From: Pelagibacteraceae bacterium AG-426-G09
GTDB lineage: Bacteria > Pseudomonadota > Alphaproteobacteria > Pelagibacterales > Pelagibacteraceae
Assembly (NCBI GenBank): GCA_003210075.1
Contig: QCNR01000002.1
Coordinates: forward strand, 19,811 to 83,810
Direction of reading: 5' to 3'
Length of the DNA stretch: 64,000 nucleotides
The translations under genes and the position numbers were made by a program. Positions 2,599 to 35,807 of this stretch are shown piece after piece. Each line of letters starts with the position of its first letter. Within the stretch, counting starts at the first letter, position 1. Under the pieces are notes generated by a model. That model worked only from the letters and a program-made list of their open reading frames with translations. It did not search any database and was not told the DNA's origin.

Positions 2599-3996
2599 AT
2601 GGCAAAAAAAAAGAAAAATGGAAAATCAAACGGTCACTCTAACGGAAATGGCAAGAGTGAGTTCTCAAAAAGAAATAAAAGTTTACTGGGTTATAATTCA
2701 ATTTTTACACCTGAAGTAATTGATGACATCCATATAAAAGCTCAGCTAGGAAGATATAGAATGAGAGGAATGGCTTTAATGAAAAAAATTCCTACATTTG
2801 ATGATCTTGTGTTTTTACCTGGAACTTTAACAAGATTTGTAATTGAAGGTTACAGAGAAAAGTGTGAAACAAAAACTGTTATTGGGCCAAGATGTGAAAA
2901 TCCAATTGAATTAGATATACCAGTTTATATTACTGGAATGAGTTTCGGTGCATTATCTTATGAGGCAAAAACTGCTTTAGCAAGAGGTGCTACGATGGCT
3001 GGAAGTGCCACATGTTCAGGTGAAGGCGGAATGATACCAGATGAGAGAAGATATTCGGAAAAATGGTACTATCAATGTATTCAATCTAGATATGGTTTTA
3101 ATCCACATCACGCTCAACTTGCGGATGGTATAGAGGTATTTATAGGACAAGGTCAAAAAGTTGGTATGGGAGGACATTTAATGGGTCAGAAAGTTACTGA
3201 CCAAGTTGCTGAAATGAGATCACTTCCAGCTGGTATTGACCAAAGATCACCAGCAAGACACCCTGATTGGCTAGGACCAGATGATCTTGCATTAAAAGTT
3301 CAAGAGCTAAGAGAATTAACTAAAAATAAAGTACCAATCCAATTGAAACTTGGGGCTGCAAAAGTATATGACGATGTGCGTATGGCAGCTAAGTGTGATC
3401 CTGACTCGATTTACCTTGATGGAATGGAAGGATCAACTGGTGCTGGACCGCATATCGCTGCGGCTAATACAGGTATACCAGGAATTGCCGCTATAAGAGA
3501 AGCAAGAAGAGCAATAGATGATGTTGGAAAAACTGGAAAAGTTACGTTGATCTATGCAGGCGGAGTTAGAGATGGTGCAGATATGGCAAAAGCACTTGCT
3601 TTAGGTGCAGATGCAATTGCAATAGGAACTGGAGCTATGGTAGCTTTAAATTGTAATAAAGAAATACCTGAGTCAAATTTTGAAAAAGAAATGGGTGTTC
3701 CGGCTGGACATTGTTATCATTGTCATACTGGCAGATGCCCAGTTGGTGTTGCAACGCAAGATCCAAAATTAAGAAAAAGATTAAATCCAGATGAAGCAGC
3801 ATTAAGAGTATACAACTATTTACATGCAATGACTTTAGAAGCGCAACTTCTTGCAAGAGCTTGTGGTAAAACAAATATACACTCTTTAGAACCTGAGGAT
3901 ATGGCAGCTTTAACAATGGAAGCTTCTGCGCTTGCAAAAGTTCCATTATCAGGAACTAATCATACTGTTGGAGTTGATGACTTCCACAAAATATAG
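2599..3996 (+). CDS. mgsC: N-methylglutamate synthase subunit C (FMN-binding glutamate synthase domain)
   Basis: 465 aa. It matches the FMN/iron-sulfur central domain of glutamate synthase: the TIM-barrel segments ITGMSFGALSYEAK and IQLKLGAAK, the FMN phosphate-binding LIYAGGVRDGADMAKALALG, and a Cys cluster HCYHCHTGRCPVG like the glutamate synthase [3Fe-4S] motif. It should carry the N-methylglutamate-forming reductive chemistry. The first 25 residues are a low-complexity Lys/Asn/Ser/Gly tail (MAKKKKNGKS...). The gene is one base after mgsB and nine before the next gene. A bona fide ammonia-forming glutamate synthase fragment is the alternative reading. Confidence 0.86.
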   Translation: MAKKKKNGKSNGHSNGNGKSEFSKRNKSLLGYNSIFTPEVIDDIHIKAQLGRYRMRGMALMKKIPTFDDLVFLPGTLTRFVIEGYREKCETKTVIGPRCENPIELDIPVYITGMSFGALSYEAKTALARGATMAGSATCSGEGGMIPDERRYSEKWYYQCIQSRYGFNPHHAQLADGIEVFIGQGQKVGMGGHLMGQKVTDQVAEMRSLPAGIDQRSPARHPDWLGPDDLALKVQELRELTKNKVPIQLKLGAAKVYDDVRMAAKCDPDSIYLDGMEGSTGAGPHIAAANTGIPGIAAIREARRAIDDVGKTGKVTLIYAGGVRDGADMAKALALGADAIAIGTGAMVALNCNKEIPESNFEKEMGVPAGHCYHCHTGRCPVGVATQDPKLRKRLNPDEAALRVYNYLHAMTLEAQLLARACGKTNIHSLEPEDMAALTMEASALAKVPLSGTNHTVGVDDFHKI

Positions 3997-4004
3997 GAAA
4001 TTAA

Positions 4005-4415
4005 ATGGCAAAGAAAAAAAATAAATCAAAGAAAAAAGAAAAAGAAGTAAAAGGTCAATTAGGAAAGAAAAAAGAGACTGCTAGAGAAAAAATGATTGGT
4101 CAAACTATTGGTTATCGTTACGATGTTAACCTGTTGCCTGATTACGCTAGATTAACTCCTTTCTTGAAAAAATATATAGAAGCAATGGGTTGGGATGATC
4201 TCAACTGGTTAGAAGACGTACATATGGGATATGAAGAGGACAGGCCAGCAGTATTTGATAGAAATGCAAATGGTTGGGTAACAATACCTAAAAAAATTAA
4301 ATTACCTAATAATCAGCAAGACAGAGACATGATTGCTAGAGAATTGTTGGTAAAATTTCAAATGTCTCCAAATCATCCTTTGGTAGATCTAAAAAAAGCA
4401 TATAGAAAATTTTAA
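4005..4415 (+). CDS. conserved protein of unknown function linked to mgsABC
   Basis: 136 aa and not recognised. The first 35 residues are almost all Lys/Glu/Gly (MAKKKNKSKKKEKEVK), resembling the N-terminal tail of MgsC just upstream. The rest is a soluble alpha-rich domain with aromatic and acidic patches (GWDDLNWLEDVHMGYEEDRP) and no Cys or membrane segment. It follows mgsC by eight bases, so it is probably co-transcribed and may assist N-methylglutamate synthase. That role is inference from position only. Confidence 0.7.
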   Translation: MAKKKNKSKKKEKEVKGQLGKKKETAREKMIGQTIGYRYDVNLLPDYARLTPFLKKYIEAMGWDDLNWLEDVHMGYEEDRPAVFDRNANGWVTIPKKIKLPNNQQDRDMIARELLVKFQMSPNHPLVDLKKAYRKF

Positions 4416-4444
4416 AATCAAAAAATTATTTAGTTCTAGTATTG

Positions 4445-4461
4445 GTTGATTAATAATCAAC
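4445..4461 (+). terminator. weak hairpin after the mgs operon
   Basis: GTTGATT-AAT-AATCAAC, a 7-bp stem with a 3-base loop, followed by CTTTATC. It is A/T-rich with only a short U-run, so it is a weak candidate end of the gmaS-mgs transcript. Confidence 0.35.
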
Positions 4462-4593
4462 TTTATCAACTAAAATGTAGCTTTTTACTGTTGTTATTAG
4501 TTTTTCAATAAAATAAATTTAATAAAAAGTTTAGGTGTGCTGAAATATTCTGAAAGCATTCTTAAATTTGTAAATTAAAGGGAGGAAAGCACG
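4462..4593 (+). promoter_or_regulatory. amt upstream leader
   Basis: This gene-free stretch must hold the amt promoter. A strong ribosome site, AAAGGGAGG, sits at 4577-4585. The element GTGCT (4537-4541) can pair either with AGCA (4555-4558) or with AGCAC (4588-4592), which lies between the ribosome site and the ATG. That would give two exclusive folds. The pairings are only 4-5 bp, so a regulatory role is speculative. No confident -35/-10 pair was chosen. Confidence 0.3.
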
Positions 4594-5994
4594 ATGACTG
4601 ATCAACTTAGTGCATTGACGACCATATTTACTGAATTCTACTATTGGGTAACTGTAGTACTTATGTTCCTAATTCACGTAGGTTTCTGTATGTATGAGGT
4701 TGGAGCCTCTAGATATAAACATCACCAACATACATTGATGAAGAATACAATGTTAATACCATTGGTTACAATAACATGGTTCTTTTTTGGTTGGTGGATA
4801 TATTGGGCGTTTCCAACAGGACCGGGTTTAGCACCTTCTATCATGAACGAAAGTGCAGCATTAATTACGGACGAGTCCGCATTTAGTGCAACTTGGTATA
4901 CTGCTACAAGTGATTTAATGGCAATAAACCTTAACGACCACATAAGTGGTGTGTTCTGGGCAGCATTTCTATTATTTTCATGGACAGCAGCTTCAATCGT
5001 TTCAGGTGCTGTAATTGAAAGAATTACAACATTTGCATTTGGTATCTTGGCAATAGCTATTGGTTCGGTATTCTGGACAATAGATGCTGCGTGGGGATGG
5101 CATTTCGACGGTTGGATGTTAAAAATATTAGGTTATCACGATGCTTATGCATCGGGAGTAATTCACGCAATAGCAGGAGGATTTGCTCTTGGAATTCTAT
5201 GTGTATTAGGACCAAGAATAGGAAAATTCTCATCTAGCGGAGAACCTAGAAATATAGGACCAAGAAATCCTTGGTTAGTAACAGTAGGATTATTTTTAAT
5301 TTATACTGGTTTCTGGGGTTTTTATGCAGCGTGTAATATTCCAATCTATGATTTAGGACCTGAATATGGAATGGAAGGAGTAACATTCTGGACTGCAACA
5401 AACATATATGTAACACCAACTACTTTAAGTGGTATTACATTTAACTTCTTGATGTCACTATCAGGAGGATTGTTGGCCGGATATGTTATATCTAAAGGTG
5501 ATCCTTTCTGGACATATTCAAGTGGACTAGCAGGAGTAATAACAGCTTCGGCAGGTAACGACTTATATCACCCAATACAAGCAATGATAATTGCAATGAT
5601 TGGTGTGTGGGTTGCTTACAAACTGCATTATTGGGTTGAACGTAAGTTCAAAATTGATGATGCTGTTGGAGCAGTTGCTGTTCACGGTTATGCTGGTTTC
5701 GTAGGACTAGTTATTTGTGGGTTTGTTCTAAATGGTTATCCATCATCTGGTTACAGTGTTGGAGCTATGTGGGATGGATCAACTTATGCTGCAATAAATC
5801 CATTAGGAATGTTTATTGGGGCAATAATTATGTTCTTCGTTCTAGGGTTTTTCCCTGGCTACATAATTGCTAGAGTACTTCACGGTATGGGCAAATTAAG
5901 AATCCCAAGAGAAGTAGAATTAGCAGGTCTAGATTATCAAATATTAGAGGATGCGAGTAGTGATGAAAAAGCCGTCGCATCATCTTCAAGGTAA
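4594..5994 (+). CDS. amt: ammonium transporter (Amt/Mep/Rh family)
   Basis: 466 aa, about eleven hydrophobic segments, inner membrane. The two pore histidines of the family are present in GVIHAIAGG and GAVAVHGYAG, and an N-terminal FLIHVGFCMYEVG segment corresponds to the first conserved helix. It imports ammonium or methylammonium, fitting its place after the methylamine genes and before a second glutamine synthetase-like gene. The hydrophilic C-terminal tail (about 30 residues) is where GlnK-type proteins act in related transporters; no glnK is in the window. A strong Shine-Dalgarno decides the start. Confidence 0.93.
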   Translation: MTDQLSALTTIFTEFYYWVTVVLMFLIHVGFCMYEVGASRYKHHQHTLMKNTMLIPLVTITWFFFGWWIYWAFPTGPGLAPSIMNESAALITDESAFSATWYTATSDLMAINLNDHISGVFWAAFLLFSWTAASIVSGAVIERITTFAFGILAIAIGSVFWTIDAAWGWHFDGWMLKILGYHDAYASGVIHAIAGGFALGILCVLGPRIGKFSSSGEPRNIGPRNPWLVTVGLFLIYTGFWGFYAACNIPIYDLGPEYGMEGVTFWTATNIYVTPTTLSGITFNFLMSLSGGLLAGYVISKGDPFWTYSSGLAGVITASAGNDLYHPIQAMIIAMIGVWVAYKLHYWVERKFKIDDAVGAVAVHGYAGFVGLVICGFVLNGYPSSGYSVGAMWDGSTYAAINPLGMFIGAIIMFFVLGFFPGYIIARVLHGMGKLRIPREVELAGLDYQILEDASSDEKAVASSSR

Positions 5995-28886: not shown

Positions 28887-30056
28887 TTAGCTCTTTATAT
28901 GCAGTTCTTTTGAAAGATTACAAAATAATTCTGATCCAGTTTCAGTAACTCTAACAGACTCTGAGGCTTCTACTCCCCACTCACCAAACTGCATTACAGC
29001 AATCATATGAAAACAAATATTTTTTTCTAATACTGTTTTGTCTCCTTTAGAAATATTTAATGTGTGCTCTCCCCAATCTGGTGGATAACCAATTCCAATT
29101 GAATAACCAGTTCTCGATTTTTTTTCGATACCATACTTATCTAAAACTTTCCAAAATGCTTGCGCAACATCATCAGCAGTATTTCCTGGTTTAGTTACAT
29201 CTATACCTGCATGAAGTGCTTCTATAGTTTTTTTCATTGTATCTATTTTTTTTTGATCAGGTTTCCCAAGAAGAACGGTTCTAGCCATAGGACAGTGATA
29301 TCTTCTATAAACTCCAGATAATTCAATAATAGTTGCCTCCCCTTCTACAAACTTGTTATCGCTCCATGTTAAATGAGATGCAGATGTACCTTTTCCAGTT
29401 GGTAAGAGTGGAACTATTGCGGAATAGTCTCCACCATATTCATTTGTCCCTTTTATTAATGTACTCGCAATCTCTGAAACCAAATCATTTTGTCTAACAC
29501 CGGGTTTAATAAATTCAAAAGCTTTTTTCATTCCAAGCTCAGTAATCTTACTTGCTTTCTTCATTAAATTTATCTCTGCATCAGATTTAACTACTCTTGC
29601 CCAATTGACTAATCTTTCGCTGTCAATTAGTTTTGCGTTAGGTAAGCCATCTAATAATTTTTTATACGAATATGCTGTAAAATAATGGGCGTCCATTTCT
29701 AATCCAATATTTAAACTTTCCCATTTCCTTTTCTTTATTAATTCTACAATTGCGTCATAAGGATGAGTTGGCCATGTATGAATATATTTTTCATCATAAG
29801 AAATTATATTTTCATGTTTTATATAACAGTTAATATATGCGCCTCCTGCATCTTGAGCTCTAACAAATAATAATGGTTCATCAGCATCTATATGTATTAT
29901 TGCACATTGGGCGTAATAAAATGACCAAGCATCATAGCCAGTAAGATAGTTTATATTTGGAGTGTCTTGTGAAATTAAAAGATCAATACCTTTTTCTTGC
30001 ATAGATTTTTTAACTTTATCTAGCCTCTCTTTATATTCCTCTTTTGAAAATAACAT
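28887..30056 (-). CDS. M24-family hydrolase, ectoine hydrolase (DoeA/EutD)-like
   Basis: About 389 aa. Pita-bread creatinase/aminopeptidase P fold: an N-terminal creatinase domain (GIDLLISQDTPNINYLTGYDAWSFYYAQ, very like DoeA) and a C-terminal domain with family histidines and acidic residues (GIGYPPDWGEHTLN). The track starts at a TTG (30080); I prefer the ATG at 30056, one base after the preceding stop. Ectoine hydrolase opens the ectoine ring. The canonical doe/eut partners eutBC or doeBD are absent from the window, so the substrate may differ (for example creatine- or peptide-like). Confidence 0.72.
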   Translation of the reverse strand: MLFSKEEYKERLDKVKKSMQEKGIDLLISQDTPNINYLTGYDAWSFYYAQCAIIHIDADEPLLFVRAQDAGGAYINCYIKHENIISYDEKYIHTWPTHPYDAIVELIKKRKWESLNIGLEMDAHYFTAYSYKKLLDGLPNAKLIDSERLVNWARVVKSDAEINLMKKASKITELGMKKAFEFIKPGVRQNDLVSEIASTLIKGTNEYGGDYSAIVPLLPTGKGTSASHLTWSDNKFVEGEATIIELSGVYRRYHCPMARTVLLGKPDQKKIDTMKKTIEALHAGIDVTKPGNTADDVAQAFWKVLDKYGIEKKSRTGYSIGIGYPPDWGEHTLNISKGDKTVLEKNICFHMIAVMQFGEWGVEASESVRVTETGSELFCNLSKELHIKS

Positions 30057-30057
30057 T

Positions 30058-30801
30058 TTAATTTGAGAATAATTTTCCAAATCCAGTAACAGATTTATTC
30101 ATTCCTATTTTTTCTAAAGTTTCCCAAATTAAAGCCTGGTTACTAGATAAAACCATTTTTTTATGTTTTTTTTCTAACCTATCTATTATCGCTAAAGCTG
30201 GAAGAGCTGTACAAGAAATAAATAAAGCATCAGCATCATTTAGTTTAATATTAGACAACACCTCATACAAATATTCTGGATCAACTTTTCCAATATCTAT
30301 ATCTGATTCTATATCAAAATAGGAATTAGATGTTATTTCAAATCCTTCTTTTTTAAAAAATTCAATTACTTCATCATTTAATTTTTTTGGGTACGGAGTA
30401 AATAAATAAATTTTTTTTATATCTAATTTTTTTAACGCATTTACAGCTGCTGTGCTTGGAGTTGTTACACTTGTGTTTGGTTTTGCTTTTTTAATTTTTT
30501 CTTCAATTGAATTATATCCAGCTGCTATTGTTCCTGAAGTACATCCATAAGCGACACAGTCTATTTTTTCATCAGGCAATATATCTTTGGTAACTTCAGT
30601 AATTTTCTCAGACATTTTAATTAGATTTTCAGATGTTAGAGGATTAAAGGTTTCTATTCTATTTACAAAAAAATCAATCTTCTTATCTTTAATAACGCTA
30701 ATGAAATCTTTTTCGATCATATAATCGCTGGATAGCGCAATTAAACCTATTTTTGGATTTAATTCCTTTAAAAATTTAGGTAGTATTTTTTTTGTTTCCA
30801 T
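30058..30801 (-). CDS. Asp/Glu racemase-superfamily protein (EutA / arylmalonate decarboxylase / maleate isomerase-like)
   Basis: 247 aa. Two catalytic cysteines of the superfamily are in the expected places: VAYGCTSGT (about residue 85) and LFISCTALPA (about residue 195), with the TPSTAAVNAL and YLFTPYPKKLN segments typical of maleate isomerase/EutA. It acts on a small dicarboxylate or amino acid. It is coupled to the DoeA-like gene (stop-start almost touching), which is the eutA-eutD pairing seen in ectoine-use clusters. The real substrate is unproven. Confidence 0.75.
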   Translation of the reverse strand: METKKILPKFLKELNPKIGLIALSSDYMIEKDFISVIKDKKIDFFVNRIETFNPLTSENLIKMSEKITEVTKDILPDEKIDCVAYGCTSGTIAAGYNSIEEKIKKAKPNTSVTTPSTAAVNALKKLDIKKIYLFTPYPKKLNDEVIEFFKKEGFEITSNSYFDIESDIDIGKVDPEYLYEVLSNIKLNDADALFISCTALPALAIIDRLEKKHKKMVLSSNQALIWETLEKIGMNKSVTGFGKLFSN

Positions 30802-30839
30802 ATTTTTTTAAATATATCCTAAAGTTATATTTTGTGATA

Positions 30840-30936
30840 TAAATAACGCAAGCGATACATAACTCGTCGTTTTAACTTCATAAGCTAAACGAAAGTGGGA
30901 TCGGTCGTCTTTAAATTAGTTTTTAAAGGAGGCTTA
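30840..30936 (+). promoter_or_regulatory. candidate structured leader / riboswitch-like element
   Basis: A G+C-richer stretch in an otherwise A/T-rich gap. Hairpin 1 (30867-30892) folds UCGUUUUA with UAAACGA (one bulged U), plus CUU/AAG around a CAU loop. Hairpin 2 (30909-30928) is CUUUAAA-UUAGUU-UUUAAAG, and its 3' arm overlaps the ribosome site AAAGGAGG (30925-30932) of the ATG at 30937. Such a fold would hide the ribosome site. The conserved-looking core AAGCUAAACGAAAGUGGGAUCGG lies between them. No known riboswitch class was recognised. Confidence 0.45.
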
Positions 30937-32103
30937 ATGAACTTTGGCTATTTTTGTAATACCACCAATTGGAATAAAAAATCTTATACGCAATTATTAG
31001 AAGAAGCTAGGGAGATAGCAATTTATTGTGATCAAAGTAATTGGAATTCAATTTGGTTTACTGAACATCATTTTAATCATGAAGGAATGGAAGTTTGTAC
31101 AAATCCATTAATGATGTGTACCGATGCTGCCGCAAGAACAAATCAAATTAGATTGGGACAAGCTTGTAATGTAATTACATTTCATAATCCAATTAGACTA
31201 GCTGAAGATATTGCTACTTTAGATCAAATGTCAAAAGGTAGAGTAGAAGTTGGTATTGGAAGAGGCGTTTACGGAAGAGAAGCTGTACACATGAACAAAG
31301 AAGCTGATCTAAAAGATCAAGCAAAAAACTTTAGATTATTTTCAGAAACACTTGAAATAATGAAAAAGGCTTGGACAGAAGATTTTTTTTCTCATAAAGG
31401 AGAATTTTACAACTACCCATCAGATAATTTTGTATGGCAACATGATATGAGCCCACCGATTGATGGTGTAGTGGAAAAACAAACAAACGTATTAAAAAAA
31501 ATAAGTGTTCTTCCAAAACCATATCAACAACCTCATCCACCTATTTCTCAAGTGGTTGATGGTGAAAGATCAATTCAGTGGGCCGCAGAAAATGGAATTA
31601 AAACAATAATGTGGATCCCTACAGTTAAAGCTCTCAAGAAAAGATTTGAAATTTATAGAGATGCAAAATCAAAAGCTGAAAATAGAGATGTTCCATTAGG
31701 AGAGGGAATTTCTTTAGTAAGAGATATGTTTGTTGCTGAAACAATGGAAGACGCAAAAAAGATGGCTGGAGAACATATTGTAAATTATATGAGATGGGTG
31801 TGTCACTGGAGAGGTTTGGGTAATCATATGGATCCAGATGAAAAGTTACCAGAAACAAAAAATAAATTAGATCTTTTAAATTATGAGTTTTTACATGGTA
31901 GAAATCTTTTATTTGGGACACCAGATTATGTAGTAAGTAAAATTAAAGAACTTCAACAAGAATTAAATCTTCAAAATTTACAGGTGTGGTCAAATTTTCC
32001 TGGAGTAAAACATGAAGATAGTATGAGAAGTATTAAATTATTTACAGAAGAAGTTATGCCAAAAATAAACGCTTTGGATGCAAATATCCAAAGAGCAAGC
32101 TAA
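30937..32103 (+). CDS. luciferase-like (LLM-class) flavin-dependent monooxygenase
   Basis: 388 aa. I reject the track's GTG start at 30895 and use the ATG at 30937, which has AAAGGAGG five bases before it and matches family N-termini (MNFGYFCNTTNW). TIM-barrel luciferase family signatures include SIWFTEHHF, AARTNQIRLG, RLAEDIATLDQMSKGRVEVGIGRG and PPISQVVDG. Such enzymes use reduced FMN and oxygen to cleave C-N, C-S or C-C bonds. First gene of a five-gene unit, overlapping the next by one base. No flavin reductase lies nearby. Confidence 0.85.
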   Translation: MNFGYFCNTTNWNKKSYTQLLEEAREIAIYCDQSNWNSIWFTEHHFNHEGMEVCTNPLMMCTDAAARTNQIRLGQACNVITFHNPIRLAEDIATLDQMSKGRVEVGIGRGVYGREAVHMNKEADLKDQAKNFRLFSETLEIMKKAWTEDFFSHKGEFYNYPSDNFVWQHDMSPPIDGVVEKQTNVLKKISVLPKPYQQPHPPISQVVDGERSIQWAAENGIKTIMWIPTVKALKKRFEIYRDAKSKAENRDVPLGEGISLVRDMFVAETMEDAKKMAGEHIVNYMRWVCHWRGLGNHMDPDEKLPETKNKLDLLNYEFLHGRNLLFGTPDYVVSKIKELQQELNLQNLQVWSNFPGVKHEDSMRSIKLFTEEVMPKINALDANIQRAS

Positions 32104-32687
32104 TGGATTTAAAATTAAGAAAATTTACAAAATTTGTAGATAAAACTTTTATTGAAGGTGGAAAGAAAGCTAAAGAACCAGTTCTACTAGTTTCTGTTGC
32201 AGCAGTAATTCAAAATCCTTGGGCAGGAAAAGGTTTTGTTGAAAATTTAAAACCAGAAATTTTAGATCTTGCACCACAGTTAGGTGATTTATTAGTTCCA
32301 GAACTTGTGAAAGAGATTGGATCAGGTGATAAAATTTTAGCTTATGGAAAAGCAGCAATGGTTGGTTTAAATGGTGAAATTGAACATGCTTCTGCATTTA
32401 TACACACATTAAGATTTGGAAATAAGTTCAGGGATGCGGTTGGAGGAACTGCTTATTTAAGTTTTACAAACACAAGAGGTCCAGCGGGATCAAAGATTTC
32501 TATTCCAATGATGCATAAAACGGATGCTGGTTTGAGACCATTTTATTTAACTCATGAATTTACTATTCATGATGCACCAAACGAAGATGAGATAGTGGTT
32601 GCAATAGGTGGTGCACCATTTGGAAGAGCTCATGCAAGAACAGGTGATAGATATCAAGATATGAAAGAGATGGGTCTTTCAAAATAA
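32103..32687 (+). CDS. DUF1185 / amino acid synthesis family protein
   Basis: 194 aa. It matches the DUF1185 (PF06684, 'amino acid synthesis') family known mainly from genome context: VSVAAVIQNPWAGKG, the GKAAMVGLNGEIEHASAFIHT segment, and VVAIGGAPFGRAHARTGDR. The reaction is not established; structures in this family resemble YjgF/chorismate-mutase-like trimers. Its start overlaps the monooxygenase stop (TAATG), so the two are made together and probably act in consecutive steps. Confidence 0.8.
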   Translation: MDLKLRKFTKFVDKTFIEGGKKAKEPVLLVSVAAVIQNPWAGKGFVENLKPEILDLAPQLGDLLVPELVKEIGSGDKILAYGKAAMVGLNGEIEHASAFIHTLRFGNKFRDAVGGTAYLSFTNTRGPAGSKISIPMMHKTDAGLRPFYLTHEFTIHDAPNEDEIVVAIGGAPFGRAHARTGDRYQDMKEMGLSK

Positions 32688-32690
32688 TTA

Positions 32691-33476
32691 ATGTTATATA
32701 ATTTTGACAAAGATCAAAATCACTATTTTTTTAAAAATAATAAGTCAATTCCATTAGTTTTTATTCATGGTGTTGGACTTAATCAGGGTATGTGGCAACC
32801 ACAAATCAATTATTTTAAAGATGAAACTATACTTACTTATGACTTATTAGGACATGGCAAAACAAAGTATAATAAAAATACTATAAAAATTGAAGATTTT
32901 AGATCTCAATTAAAAAATTTATTAGTAAATTTAAATATTCAAAAAATTAACCTTGTAGGTTTTTCCATAGGTGCTTTAATAGCTATTGATTTTGTTTCTG
33001 AATATAAAAAATACTTTAACTCTTTAACCTTGATTGCGACTACATATAAAAGAACTGATGAAGAAAGGAAGAAAGTTATTGATAGATTAAATCTTGCAAA
33101 GAAAAATATGCCATTATCTAAACTTGCAATGAAAAGATGGTTTAGTGACAAATATCTAGAAAATAATCCTGCAGTATATAAAGAGTTTATGAATATTTTA
33201 AATAAATCGGGAGAAGACCATGAAAACTTTATTAAAGCATACGATTTATTTGCAAATTATATAGATGATGAAATAAAGGTAAAAAAAATAGATGTTAATA
33301 CTCTTATAATTACAGGATCAGATGATCCTGGCTCAACTTCTAAAATGTCCAGAGAATTAAATAACGATATACCTAATTCTAAATTTATTGAGATAAAAGG
33401 TGGAAAACATCTATGTAGTATTGAATGTTCAGATGATGTAAATATTGCAATAAAAGACCATATTAATAATGCCTGA
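32691..33476 (+). CDS. alpha/beta hydrolase
   Basis: 261 aa. Oxyanion segment FIHGVGLNQGMW, nucleophile elbow VGFSIGAL (Ser), acid loop TGSDDPGS, and His in GGKHLCSIE. The fold resembles PcaD/RutD-type ring-cleavage hydrolases. It lies between the DUF1185 gene (three-base gap) and an aldehyde dehydrogenase (eight-base overlap), consistent with hydrolysing the monooxygenase product. Substrate unknown. Confidence 0.85.
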   Translation: MLYNFDKDQNHYFFKNNKSIPLVFIHGVGLNQGMWQPQINYFKDETILTYDLLGHGKTKYNKNTIKIEDFRSQLKNLLVNLNIQKINLVGFSIGALIAIDFVSEYKKYFNSLTLIATTYKRTDEERKKVIDRLNLAKKNMPLSKLAMKRWFSDKYLENNPAVYKEFMNILNKSGEDHENFIKAYDLFANYIDDEIKVKKIDVNTLIITGSDDPGSTSKMSRELNNDIPNSKFIEIKGGKHLCSIECSDDVNIAIKDHINNA

Positions 33477-34950
33477 ATTAAAAAAATATAAAATGTTTAT
33501 TAATGGGGAGTGGGTTGACTCTGAAAGTAAAAAAACATTTGAAACTTTAAATCCAGAAAATAATAAACCATGGGCTGTAGTTCCTGAAGCAAGCGCTAAA
33601 GATGTTGATAAAGCAGTCAAATCTGCTCAAAAAGCTTTTGAAGGGGAATGGTCTAAAATATTGCCTAGAGAAAGAGCAAAATATTTAAGAGCTATCGGGA
33701 GCAAACTTAGAGAGAATGCTGAGCTATTAGGCAAAGTTGAAACAGTTGATACAGGTAAACTTTATAGAGAAACTTATAAACAAGCTAATTACATTGCTGA
33801 GTACTATGACTACTACGCAGGACTTGCAGATAAAATTGAAGGTACAGTTCTTCCAATTGATAAACCAAATATTCAAGCTATTACAACTAGAATTCCAATT
33901 GGAGTAATTGCAGCTATCGTTCCTTGGAATTCACAAATGTTTTTAACAGCAACTAAACTTGCACCTGCGCTTGCCATGGGAAATACTGTTGTAATTAAAG
34001 CATCAGAACTTGCGCCAGCTACGATGTTTGAATTTGCAAAATTAATTGAAGAAACAGGAATTCCTAAAGGAGTAGTAAATGTTATTACAGGTTTTGGAGA
34101 TCCATGCGGTAAAGCTTTAACAACTCATAATTTAGTTGAAAAGGTTGCATTCACAGGTGGTCCTGAAACAGCAAGGCATATAATAAGAAATTCTGCAGAA
34201 AATTTATCTGAAGTAAGTTTAGAACTTGGTGGAAAGAGTCCAGTTGCAGTATTCAACGATGCACATCAGGAAAATGCAGTTAATGGAATTACTGCTGGAA
34301 TTTTTGGTGCATCTGGACAAAGTTGTATTGCTGGTTCAAGATTATATTTACAAAAAGAAATTTATAATGAATTTTTAGATAAACTTACAGCTAGAGCAGA
34401 AAAAATAAAAATAGGAGCGCCAATGGATCCAGATACAGAAATGGGACCATTAAGTAATTTTAAACAATTAGAAGTTATTGAGAAAAACATAAAATTAACT
34501 TTAGAGCAAGGTGGAAAAATTAAATGTGGTGGCAAAAGACATTCATATTCAAATGAAGGATATTATTTTCCTCCAACAATTATTGAATGTGATAATCACA
34601 ACTTGCCAGTTGCAGAAAATGAATTATTTGGTCCTGTTTTGTCAGTTATGAAATTCGAAAACGAAAAAGAAGTAATTGAAAAGATGAATGATAATCAATT
34701 TGGATTATCCTCTGGAGTTTATACTAGCGATCTGGCTAGAGGATTAAGAGTTTCAAACGCAATCAGAGCAGGAATTACATTTGTAAATACATACAGATTA
34801 ATTTCACCATCTGCACCATTTGGAGGGATTAAAGATAGTGGATATGGAAAAGAAGCAGGCATCGACTCAATTAAAGACTACACAAGAGTTAAAACTATTT
34901 GGTACTACACATCTGACGAACCAACCCTCGATCCCTTTGCAATTAGATAG
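33469..34950 (+). CDS. aldehyde dehydrogenase
   Basis: 493 aa. Catalytic Cys in ASGQSCIAGSR, Glu in SLELGGKSPV, cofactor segment IVPWNSQMF and FTGGPETAR. It is closest in look to the betaine/hydroxymuconic-semialdehyde group of dehydrogenases. It should oxidise the aldehyde product of the preceding monooxygenase and hydrolase steps. It overlaps the hydrolase gene by eight bases and shares one base with the GTG start of the next gene. Confidence 0.87.
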   Translation: MPELKKYKMFINGEWVDSESKKTFETLNPENNKPWAVVPEASAKDVDKAVKSAQKAFEGEWSKILPRERAKYLRAIGSKLRENAELLGKVETVDTGKLYRETYKQANYIAEYYDYYAGLADKIEGTVLPIDKPNIQAITTRIPIGVIAAIVPWNSQMFLTATKLAPALAMGNTVVIKASELAPATMFEFAKLIEETGIPKGVVNVITGFGDPCGKALTTHNLVEKVAFTGGPETARHIIRNSAENLSEVSLELGGKSPVAVFNDAHQENAVNGITAGIFGASGQSCIAGSRLYLQKEIYNEFLDKLTARAEKIKIGAPMDPDTEMGPLSNFKQLEVIEKNIKLTLEQGGKIKCGGKRHSYSNEGYYFPPTIIECDNHNLPVAENELFGPVLSVMKFENEKEVIEKMNDNQFGLSSGVYTSDLARGLRVSNAIRAGITFVNTYRLISPSAPFGGIKDSGYGKEAGIDSIKDYTRVKTIWYYTSDEPTLDPFAIR

Positions 34951-35807
34951 TGCCACTTAAACATATATTAGTTTTACTTTTTATAATGGCTACACATGGA
35001 AGTGCCTTTCCAATAGCAAAACTTGCTCTTAACAATAATGTTCCACCAATTCTTATGGCCTCTCTAAGGATGGGCATGGTAATGCTACTATTAATTCCTT
35101 TTTGGAAATTTAAAATTCCAGACAAAAAATATCTTAAATCACTTATTTTATTTTCAATTTCTATGGGTGTAATGGTATATGTTTTTATGAATCTATCTTT
35201 AAAACATTCTTCATTTATTTCTCCAATAATAATTGGTGCTCAGTTAGCTGTCCCCTTTGCTGTTTTATTAAGCGCAAAAATGATTGGGGAAAGTATTAGT
35301 GCTAAGAAATGGATGTATGTTATTTTAGCTTTTGTAGGAATTATTATTGTTTTCTTTGATCCTGAATTAAAAAATAACTTACTTGGATTATTTTTTGCAT
35401 CATTGATGGCTTTATTTTTTGCTATAGCTCAGGTCTACTCAAGACAATTGAAAGAATTAAGTCTTACATTATTAAATGTTTATACTGGCTTTTTTGGCTT
35501 CTTTGTTCTTATTGTGGTGTCTTTTTTTGTAGAAGGTGAAGTGATTATCAATATAAAAAATATTAATTTTGAGTCTTGGATTTTAATTAGTTATCAGGCT
35601 GTAATTGTTTCATTGTTTGCTCACATGTCTATGTTTTATTTGTATAAATTTTATACAGTAGGACAGATTTTTCCCTTCTACTCTTTATTTCCAATATTTG
35701 GGATCATTTTGACTTTTTTGATATTTGGTGAAATTCCAAGCCTATTATTTTTTATAGGGAGCTTTATCGTTATAAGTTCAGTAATTTTACTGCAGAAAAC
35801 CAAATAA
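34950..35807 (+). CDS. DMT-superfamily (EamA) transporter
   Basis: 285 aa, ten predicted membrane helices in two EamA halves (ATHGSAFPIAKLAL and VIVSLFAHMSMFYLYKF). The GTG start shares its G with the stop of the aldehyde dehydrogenase, so it is translationally coupled. Inner-membrane carrier, possibly importing the pathway substrate or exporting a product. Direction and ligand cannot be read. Confidence 0.78.
   Translation: MPLKHILVLLFIMATHGSAFPIAKLALNNNVPPILMASLRMGMVMLLLIPFWKFKIPDKKYLKSLILFSISMGVMVYVFMNLSLKHSSFISPIIIGAQLAVPFAVLLSAKMIGESISAKKWMYVILAFVGIIIVFFDPELKNNLLGLFFASLMALFFAIAQVYSRQLKELSLTLLNVYTGFFGFFVLIVVSFFVEGEVIINIKNINFESWILISYQAVIVSLFAHMSMFYLYKFYTVGQIFPFYSLFPIFGIILTFLIFGEIPSLLFFIGSFIVISSVILLQKTK

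Follow-up and report, generated by a model that had tools for sequence, protein, structure and literature searches.

We describe an RNA leader that precedes a catabolic operon of SAR11 bacteria and that is almost certainly a real, conserved and structured regulatory element. The leader probably acts as a riboswitch that controls translation and belongs to no described class, its sensing of a small molecule being suggested by its architecture. Few cells in the ocean are as abundant as SAR11 bacteria, which possess few regulators. If the riboswitch reading is correct, a new RNA sensor of this lineage would offer both a regulatory mechanism and, via its ligand, a way to name the substrate of an operon that is widespread and catabolic. 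The short aptamer would also be tractable in vitro. The leader was analyzed within a stretch of 64,000 nucleotides from Pelagibacteraceae bacterium AG-426-G09 (the window); coordinates are those of the window and refer to the plus strand unless stated otherwise.

The leader lies in a gap of 135 bases that separates a divergent gene (30058-30801, minus strand) from the gene of an LLM-class (luciferase-like) flavin monooxygenase, which starts at 30937, and it takes up about 85-87 bases of that gap (30850-30936). A -10-like promoter hexamer, TATAAA, is predicted at 30838-30843, and from its position the transcript would start near 30850, the first base of helix P1. Across 116 distinct upstream regions, -10-like hexamers are concentrated 14-22 nt before ACATAACTC and conservation rises sharply at P1; the transcript therefore probably begins with the leader. 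The Shine-Dalgarno sequence predicted for the LLM gene, AAAGGAGG, occupies 30925-30932. On the other side of the gap, the divergent genes (28887-30801, minus strand) are related to the ectoine utilisation genes EutD/DoeA and EutA at scores below the NCBIfam cut-offs, and a EutA-like gene divergently adjoins the leader in many further SAR11 genomes.

The leader adopts one joint fold in which P1 is followed by a two-strand internal loop, hairpin P2 and then hairpin P3, with P1 joining both hairpins. P1 is a long-range helix that encloses P2 and had been overlooked in the first-pass annotation of this DNA. Its 5' arm, AAGCGAU (30850-30856), consists of an outer AAG (30850-30852) and an inner CGAU (30853-30856), and pairs with the 3' arm GUCG-U-CUU (30904-30911), which contains one bulged U and whose CUU is common to P1 and P3. 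An alternative P1 register, CGAU/AUCG, is present in the minimum-energy fold and was rejected because leaders L005/L166, L024 and L150 co-vary in step with the UCG register. The first strand of the internal loop, J1/2 (ACAUAACUC-R, 30857-30866), is almost invariant. It displays no variation in the 62 leaders of alignment A1, nearly all of which were picked by the J1/2 motif itself, and in alignment A3, whose 85 distinct leaders include about 30 found without that motif, C30858 is the sole differing position, in one leader. The second strand, J2/1 (AAGYGGGAUCR, 30893-30903), is invariant or nearly so in both alignments except for the Y and the last R. P2 (30867-30892) pairs UCGUUU (30867-30872) with AAACGA (30887-30892) beneath a variable apical loop, and P3 (30909-30928), the putative expression-platform hairpin, pairs CUUUAAA (30909-30915) with UUUAAAG (30922-30928), its 3' arm covering the AAAG of AAAGGAGG. 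These are the two hairpins that had been drawn in the first-pass annotation, one bulged and the other with its 3' arm over the ribosome site, and both were recovered exactly where it had placed them. The leader had also been called unusually structured, which the single sequence fails to show, since the folding energy of the window leader is unexceptional relative to dinucleotide shuffles (z = -0.65 to -1.73). Energy by itself is weak evidence for the leader structure, and the case for it is comparative.

Covariation was computed on the 62 distinct leaders of A1 and the 85 of A3. In the 85-leader set, standard pairs fill 93.6% of the cells of P1, P2 and P3, compared with 29-58% for slid structures, and 73 double-change cells were observed versus 25.2 in shuffles. 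None of 500 shuffles equalled the observed covariation values, and RNAalifold finds P1 and P2 unaided. Compensatory changes, which had been proposed as the support to look for in both hairpins, are present in each of them: UA to CG, GC to AU, and UA to CG or AU in P2, and double changes in P3. Inner P1 also has compensatory changes, with weaker support for outer P1, and the U.G pair closing P1 is replaced by UA in 19 leaders and by CG in a single one.

Because kinship of the sequences inflates covariation counts, a tree-based null was used, in which each column was simulated along the tree with as many changes as that column itself shows. Under this null, low p values were obtained for the whole structure (p = 0.001), for P3 (p = 0.001-0.004) and for inner P1 jointly with P2 (p = 0.001-0.004); outer P1 gave p = 0.034 in one test and 0.004 on the larger alignment. 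P2 alone gave p = 0.010 and then 0.057 on A3, and inner P1 alone gave p = 0.055 on the larger alignment, the weaker single-helix values on the larger set arising partly because the aligner misplaces one-base deletions. Slid control structures reached no significance on percentage paired. An all-pairs version of the test returned no significant pair (1.55 expected false positives at best), as the core varies too little, and the helix-level tests took its place. Compensatory changes in three helices under the tree-based null indicate single-stranded RNA, and they make it very unlikely that the conserved block is instead a DNA element, i.e. an operator or extended promoter for a transcription factor in which pairing is incidental. 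The location of the block just 3' of a promoter-like hexamer would suit such an element, but the internal-loop strands contain neither palindrome nor repeat, and the window genes listed near the operon include no linked regulator.

A covariance model detects the element in 136 of 397 genomes of the order. The exact core pattern is present in 103 of the same 397 genomes, with no match for the reversed control, and in at least 118 stretches of the GTDB collection. Conservation of the leader in relatives that retain the operon, on which the first-pass annotation had staked its proposal, holds in every SAR11 orthologue locus fetched (30 of 30), the leader standing directly upstream of the LLM gene. 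Likewise, 145 of 150 pattern matches are situated 16-39 nt before an LLM orthologue, and for genomes added by the covariance model only, the LLM gene adjoins the leader in 34 of the 35 loci fetched with them. Upstream neighbours differ among loci; leader and operon remain together. At E <= 0.001, the LLM gene was scored as present in 38 of 101 relatives, one of these being a weak match to a different protein. Besides the window's own genome, strong LLM homologues were found in only three of 385 genomes sampled across the class, and the leader is absent at all five LLM loci of these distant genomes. The element occupies the 5' UTR of a metabolic gene, as expected of a riboswitch. Its gene association is exclusive: it was not found before several genes of one pathway, occurring only at the LLM operon and as decayed copies (L067, L073 and L216). 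This restriction counts against a riboswitch, since control of several pathway genes is common among riboswitch classes, although usual rather than required. The spread of leaders also bears on whether the sequence is coding, as an N-terminal LLM extension from GTG 30895 or a leader peptide. In the window, this GTG shares the frame of the annotated ATG with no stop between them, but among 76 distinct leaders it is in frame and open in 23, out of frame or stopped in 40 and missing in 13; the extension is refuted by this lack of a conserved frame, and a coding role is hardly credible.

Several individual loci are of note. L073 contains a second leader copy (1150-1260), 1.5 kb upstream of the functional one, in which the aptamer core is intact, P3 is missing and no LLM gene lies behind. 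In L067 (7543-7921, minus strand), a leader is joined to what is left of the C-terminal part of the operon's aldehyde dehydrogenase, apparently through an internal operon deletion. The decayed leader of L216 (1365-1468, minus strand; 30.4 bits) adjoins a EutA-like gene and has lost P3, and the LLM gene is missing. On a contig labelled Gammaproteobacteria (MED641; L048), the leader is of SAR11 type and the LLM gene shares 73% identity with that of the window; the assignment of this contig is possibly a binning error. A Pelagibacteraceae genome of deep Lake Baikal (L121) likewise has the leader, which is therefore not strictly marine. Matches in Paenibacillus (L057) and in a viral contig (L149) were dismissed as chance, both being devoid of the LLM gene and of P1/P3, and no similarity to the leader was found in phages or plasmids.

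The operon opens with the LLM gene (30937-32103; PF00296, E = 4e-44), followed by genes for an AA_synth (DUF1185) protein (32103-32687; PF06684, E = 2e-64), a PcaD-like alpha/beta hydrolase (32691-33476; PF00561) and an aldehyde dehydrogenase (33469-34950; PF00171). The leader and these four genes occur together in all 43 long loci. An EamA transporter gene (34950-35807; PF00892), present in 16 of the 43, is a likely member in the window, and the operon often also encodes a Liv-type binding protein. In L073, a 565-aa protein (3929-5626) that by eye resembles a thiamine-diphosphate-dependent synthase is inserted between LLM and DUF1185. Nothing was found on the operon's chemistry in a mostly openly available literature; gene sets of this kind presumably degrade N-methylated or heterocyclic compounds. 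In one distant alphaproteobacterium (L224), the same four genes lie downstream of flavin reductase, Rieske oxygenase and LysR regulator genes, and in another (L225) a TetR gene adjoins the LLM gene; at the third distant locus (L226), no clear counterpart was seen on quick reading. A LysR or TetR gene is near the operon, with the leader absent, in two of the three distant loci examined.

The same bases of the leader are claimed by P1 and by P3. The CUUU after P1 pairs either with the AAAG at the 5' end, as outer P1, or with the AAAG of the ribosome site, as P3, and at least two of these four shared bases are able to pair both ways in 74 of the 85 leaders. In the window, P3 can be extended through GUC/GGC across the whole ribosome site at the expense of the inner P1 arm. 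In model ensembles of 62 leaders, the median accessibility of the ribosome site was 0.19 unforced, 0.62 when inner P1 and P2 were forced in silico (an increase in 49 of 62 leaders) and 0.68 when full P1 and P2 were forced (an increase in 57 of 62). When the linker from P1 to the ribosome site was shuffled, the median share of shuffles that matched natural sequestration was 6%, and for the natural gain it was 3%. The aptamer fold lies about 3.5 kcal/mol above the free fold, a gap that a ligand could bridge. As computed, an expression platform competes with the aptamer, which is characteristic of riboswitches. The layout of a translational switch, which had been proposed from the window alone, is borne out by the alignment insofar as an aptamer-like core is followed by a ribosome-site sequester; ligand binding we infer, and the term riboswitch is therefore an interpretation of this architecture. 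Were P3 alone to matter, as an RNA thermometer melting with temperature or a passive ribosome-site hairpin, its A/U-rich and well-supported stem would be accounted for, but the most conserved part of the leader, namely the internal loop with P1 and P2, would be left functionless, and we regard such a role as highly improbable.

In the riboswitch mechanism that we propose, the aptamer would consist of P1 and P2 together with the conserved internal loop that separates these helices. When ligand is absent, the P3 hairpin would take up the P1 3' arm and bury AAAGGAGG, leaving the operon poorly translated. A ligand in the internal loop would stabilize P1, whereupon P3 would be shortened or lost, the ribosome site would open and the operon would be translated. 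Such an ON switch would be sensible for a catabolic operon. The putative ligand is probably the operon substrate or an early intermediate, and an N-methylated or heterocyclic compound would fit because of the operon content and the distant homologues. Some leaders (e.g. L048, L116 and L150) have only a weak outer P1, the part that gives rise to the P3 overlap, or none at all, and a ligand-bound OFF state in which P1 is stacked on P3 is therefore possible.

The main rival to a riboswitch is a protein-binding autoregulatory leader, in which a cellular protein, perhaps encoded by the operon, would bind the internal loop and set the balance between P1 and P3. Such a leader would yield equal conservation and covariation, and the restriction of the element to one operon is consistent with it. 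We nevertheless consider it unlikely, as the operon genes include no known RNA-binding protein, and RNA-binding autoregulation is unusual for catabolic enzymes, which counts against it. Extending the riboswitch reading, we tentatively suggest, as a real possibility that falls a little short of probable, that the leader is a new class restricted for the most part to SAR11 and certain other marine alphaproteobacteria, that it reads a substrate for which no RNA sensor is yet known (e.g. a homarine- or trigonelline-type N-methylated heterocycle), and that it replaced the protein regulators of homologous operons in larger genomes. This apparent exchange of protein for RNA regulation among related lineages would be a concrete case of genome streamlining.

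The initial impression that the core matches no familiar riboswitch class is supported. A search of Rfam 15 with the window leader gave no plausible family even at E = 10 with lax filters, and eleven diverse leaders gave no match. The sole overlap, of the A/U-rich P3 with a fly (insect) localisation element (E = 1.9; 15.3 bits, cut-off 43), is at chance level. Elsewhere in the window, far from the leader, an rhtB sRNA (RF01814; 50155-50233, minus strand; 65.9 bits, E = 1.2e-10) is the sole gathering-level Rfam match. No riboswitch at LLM genes was found in a literature made up mostly of openly available papers other than preprints, and an earlier listing (e.g. in candidate-RNA lists) is possible. 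Among the candidate structured RNAs that a comparison of intergenic regions had yielded in SAR11, i.e. the rpsB, rpsL, ffh, rhtB, pntA, bablM and SAR11_0636 motifs, none is named for or located at a monooxygenase operon (Meyer et al. 2009; PMC2704228). SAM-V, first described in SAR11 (PMC2704228), and SAM-II resemble the leader in being short translational switches; both are H-type pseudoknots that precede methionine genes, whereas the leader is a hairpin with an internal loop before a monooxygenase operon, and their Rfam models do not match it.

The nearest known class in plan, though not in junction sequence, is xanthine-I (the NMT1 motif). Like the leader, it is a small two-stem aptamer whose P1/P2 junction holds most of the conserved bases, with a U.G pair extending P1 and with sequestration of the ribosome site in place of a terminator (PMC7373994, PMC8266621). 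The shared plan of P1, conserved junction, P2 and ribosome-site sequester would favour a diverged member of a described class, too distant for the Rfam models. Such an origin is quite unlikely given the Rfam results for the window leader and the eleven others and given the NMT1 junction residues, U5 A6 G7 A8 A9 G10 C11 G12 U13 and A38 A39 U40 U41 G42 (PMC8266621), which, compared by eye, do not fit ACAUAACUC and AAGYGGGAUCR. The leader further differs in that its P2 is without the small dividing bulge and its genes are not purine genes, and xanthine-I is reported to be an OFF switch, whereas the leader is predicted to be an ON switch.
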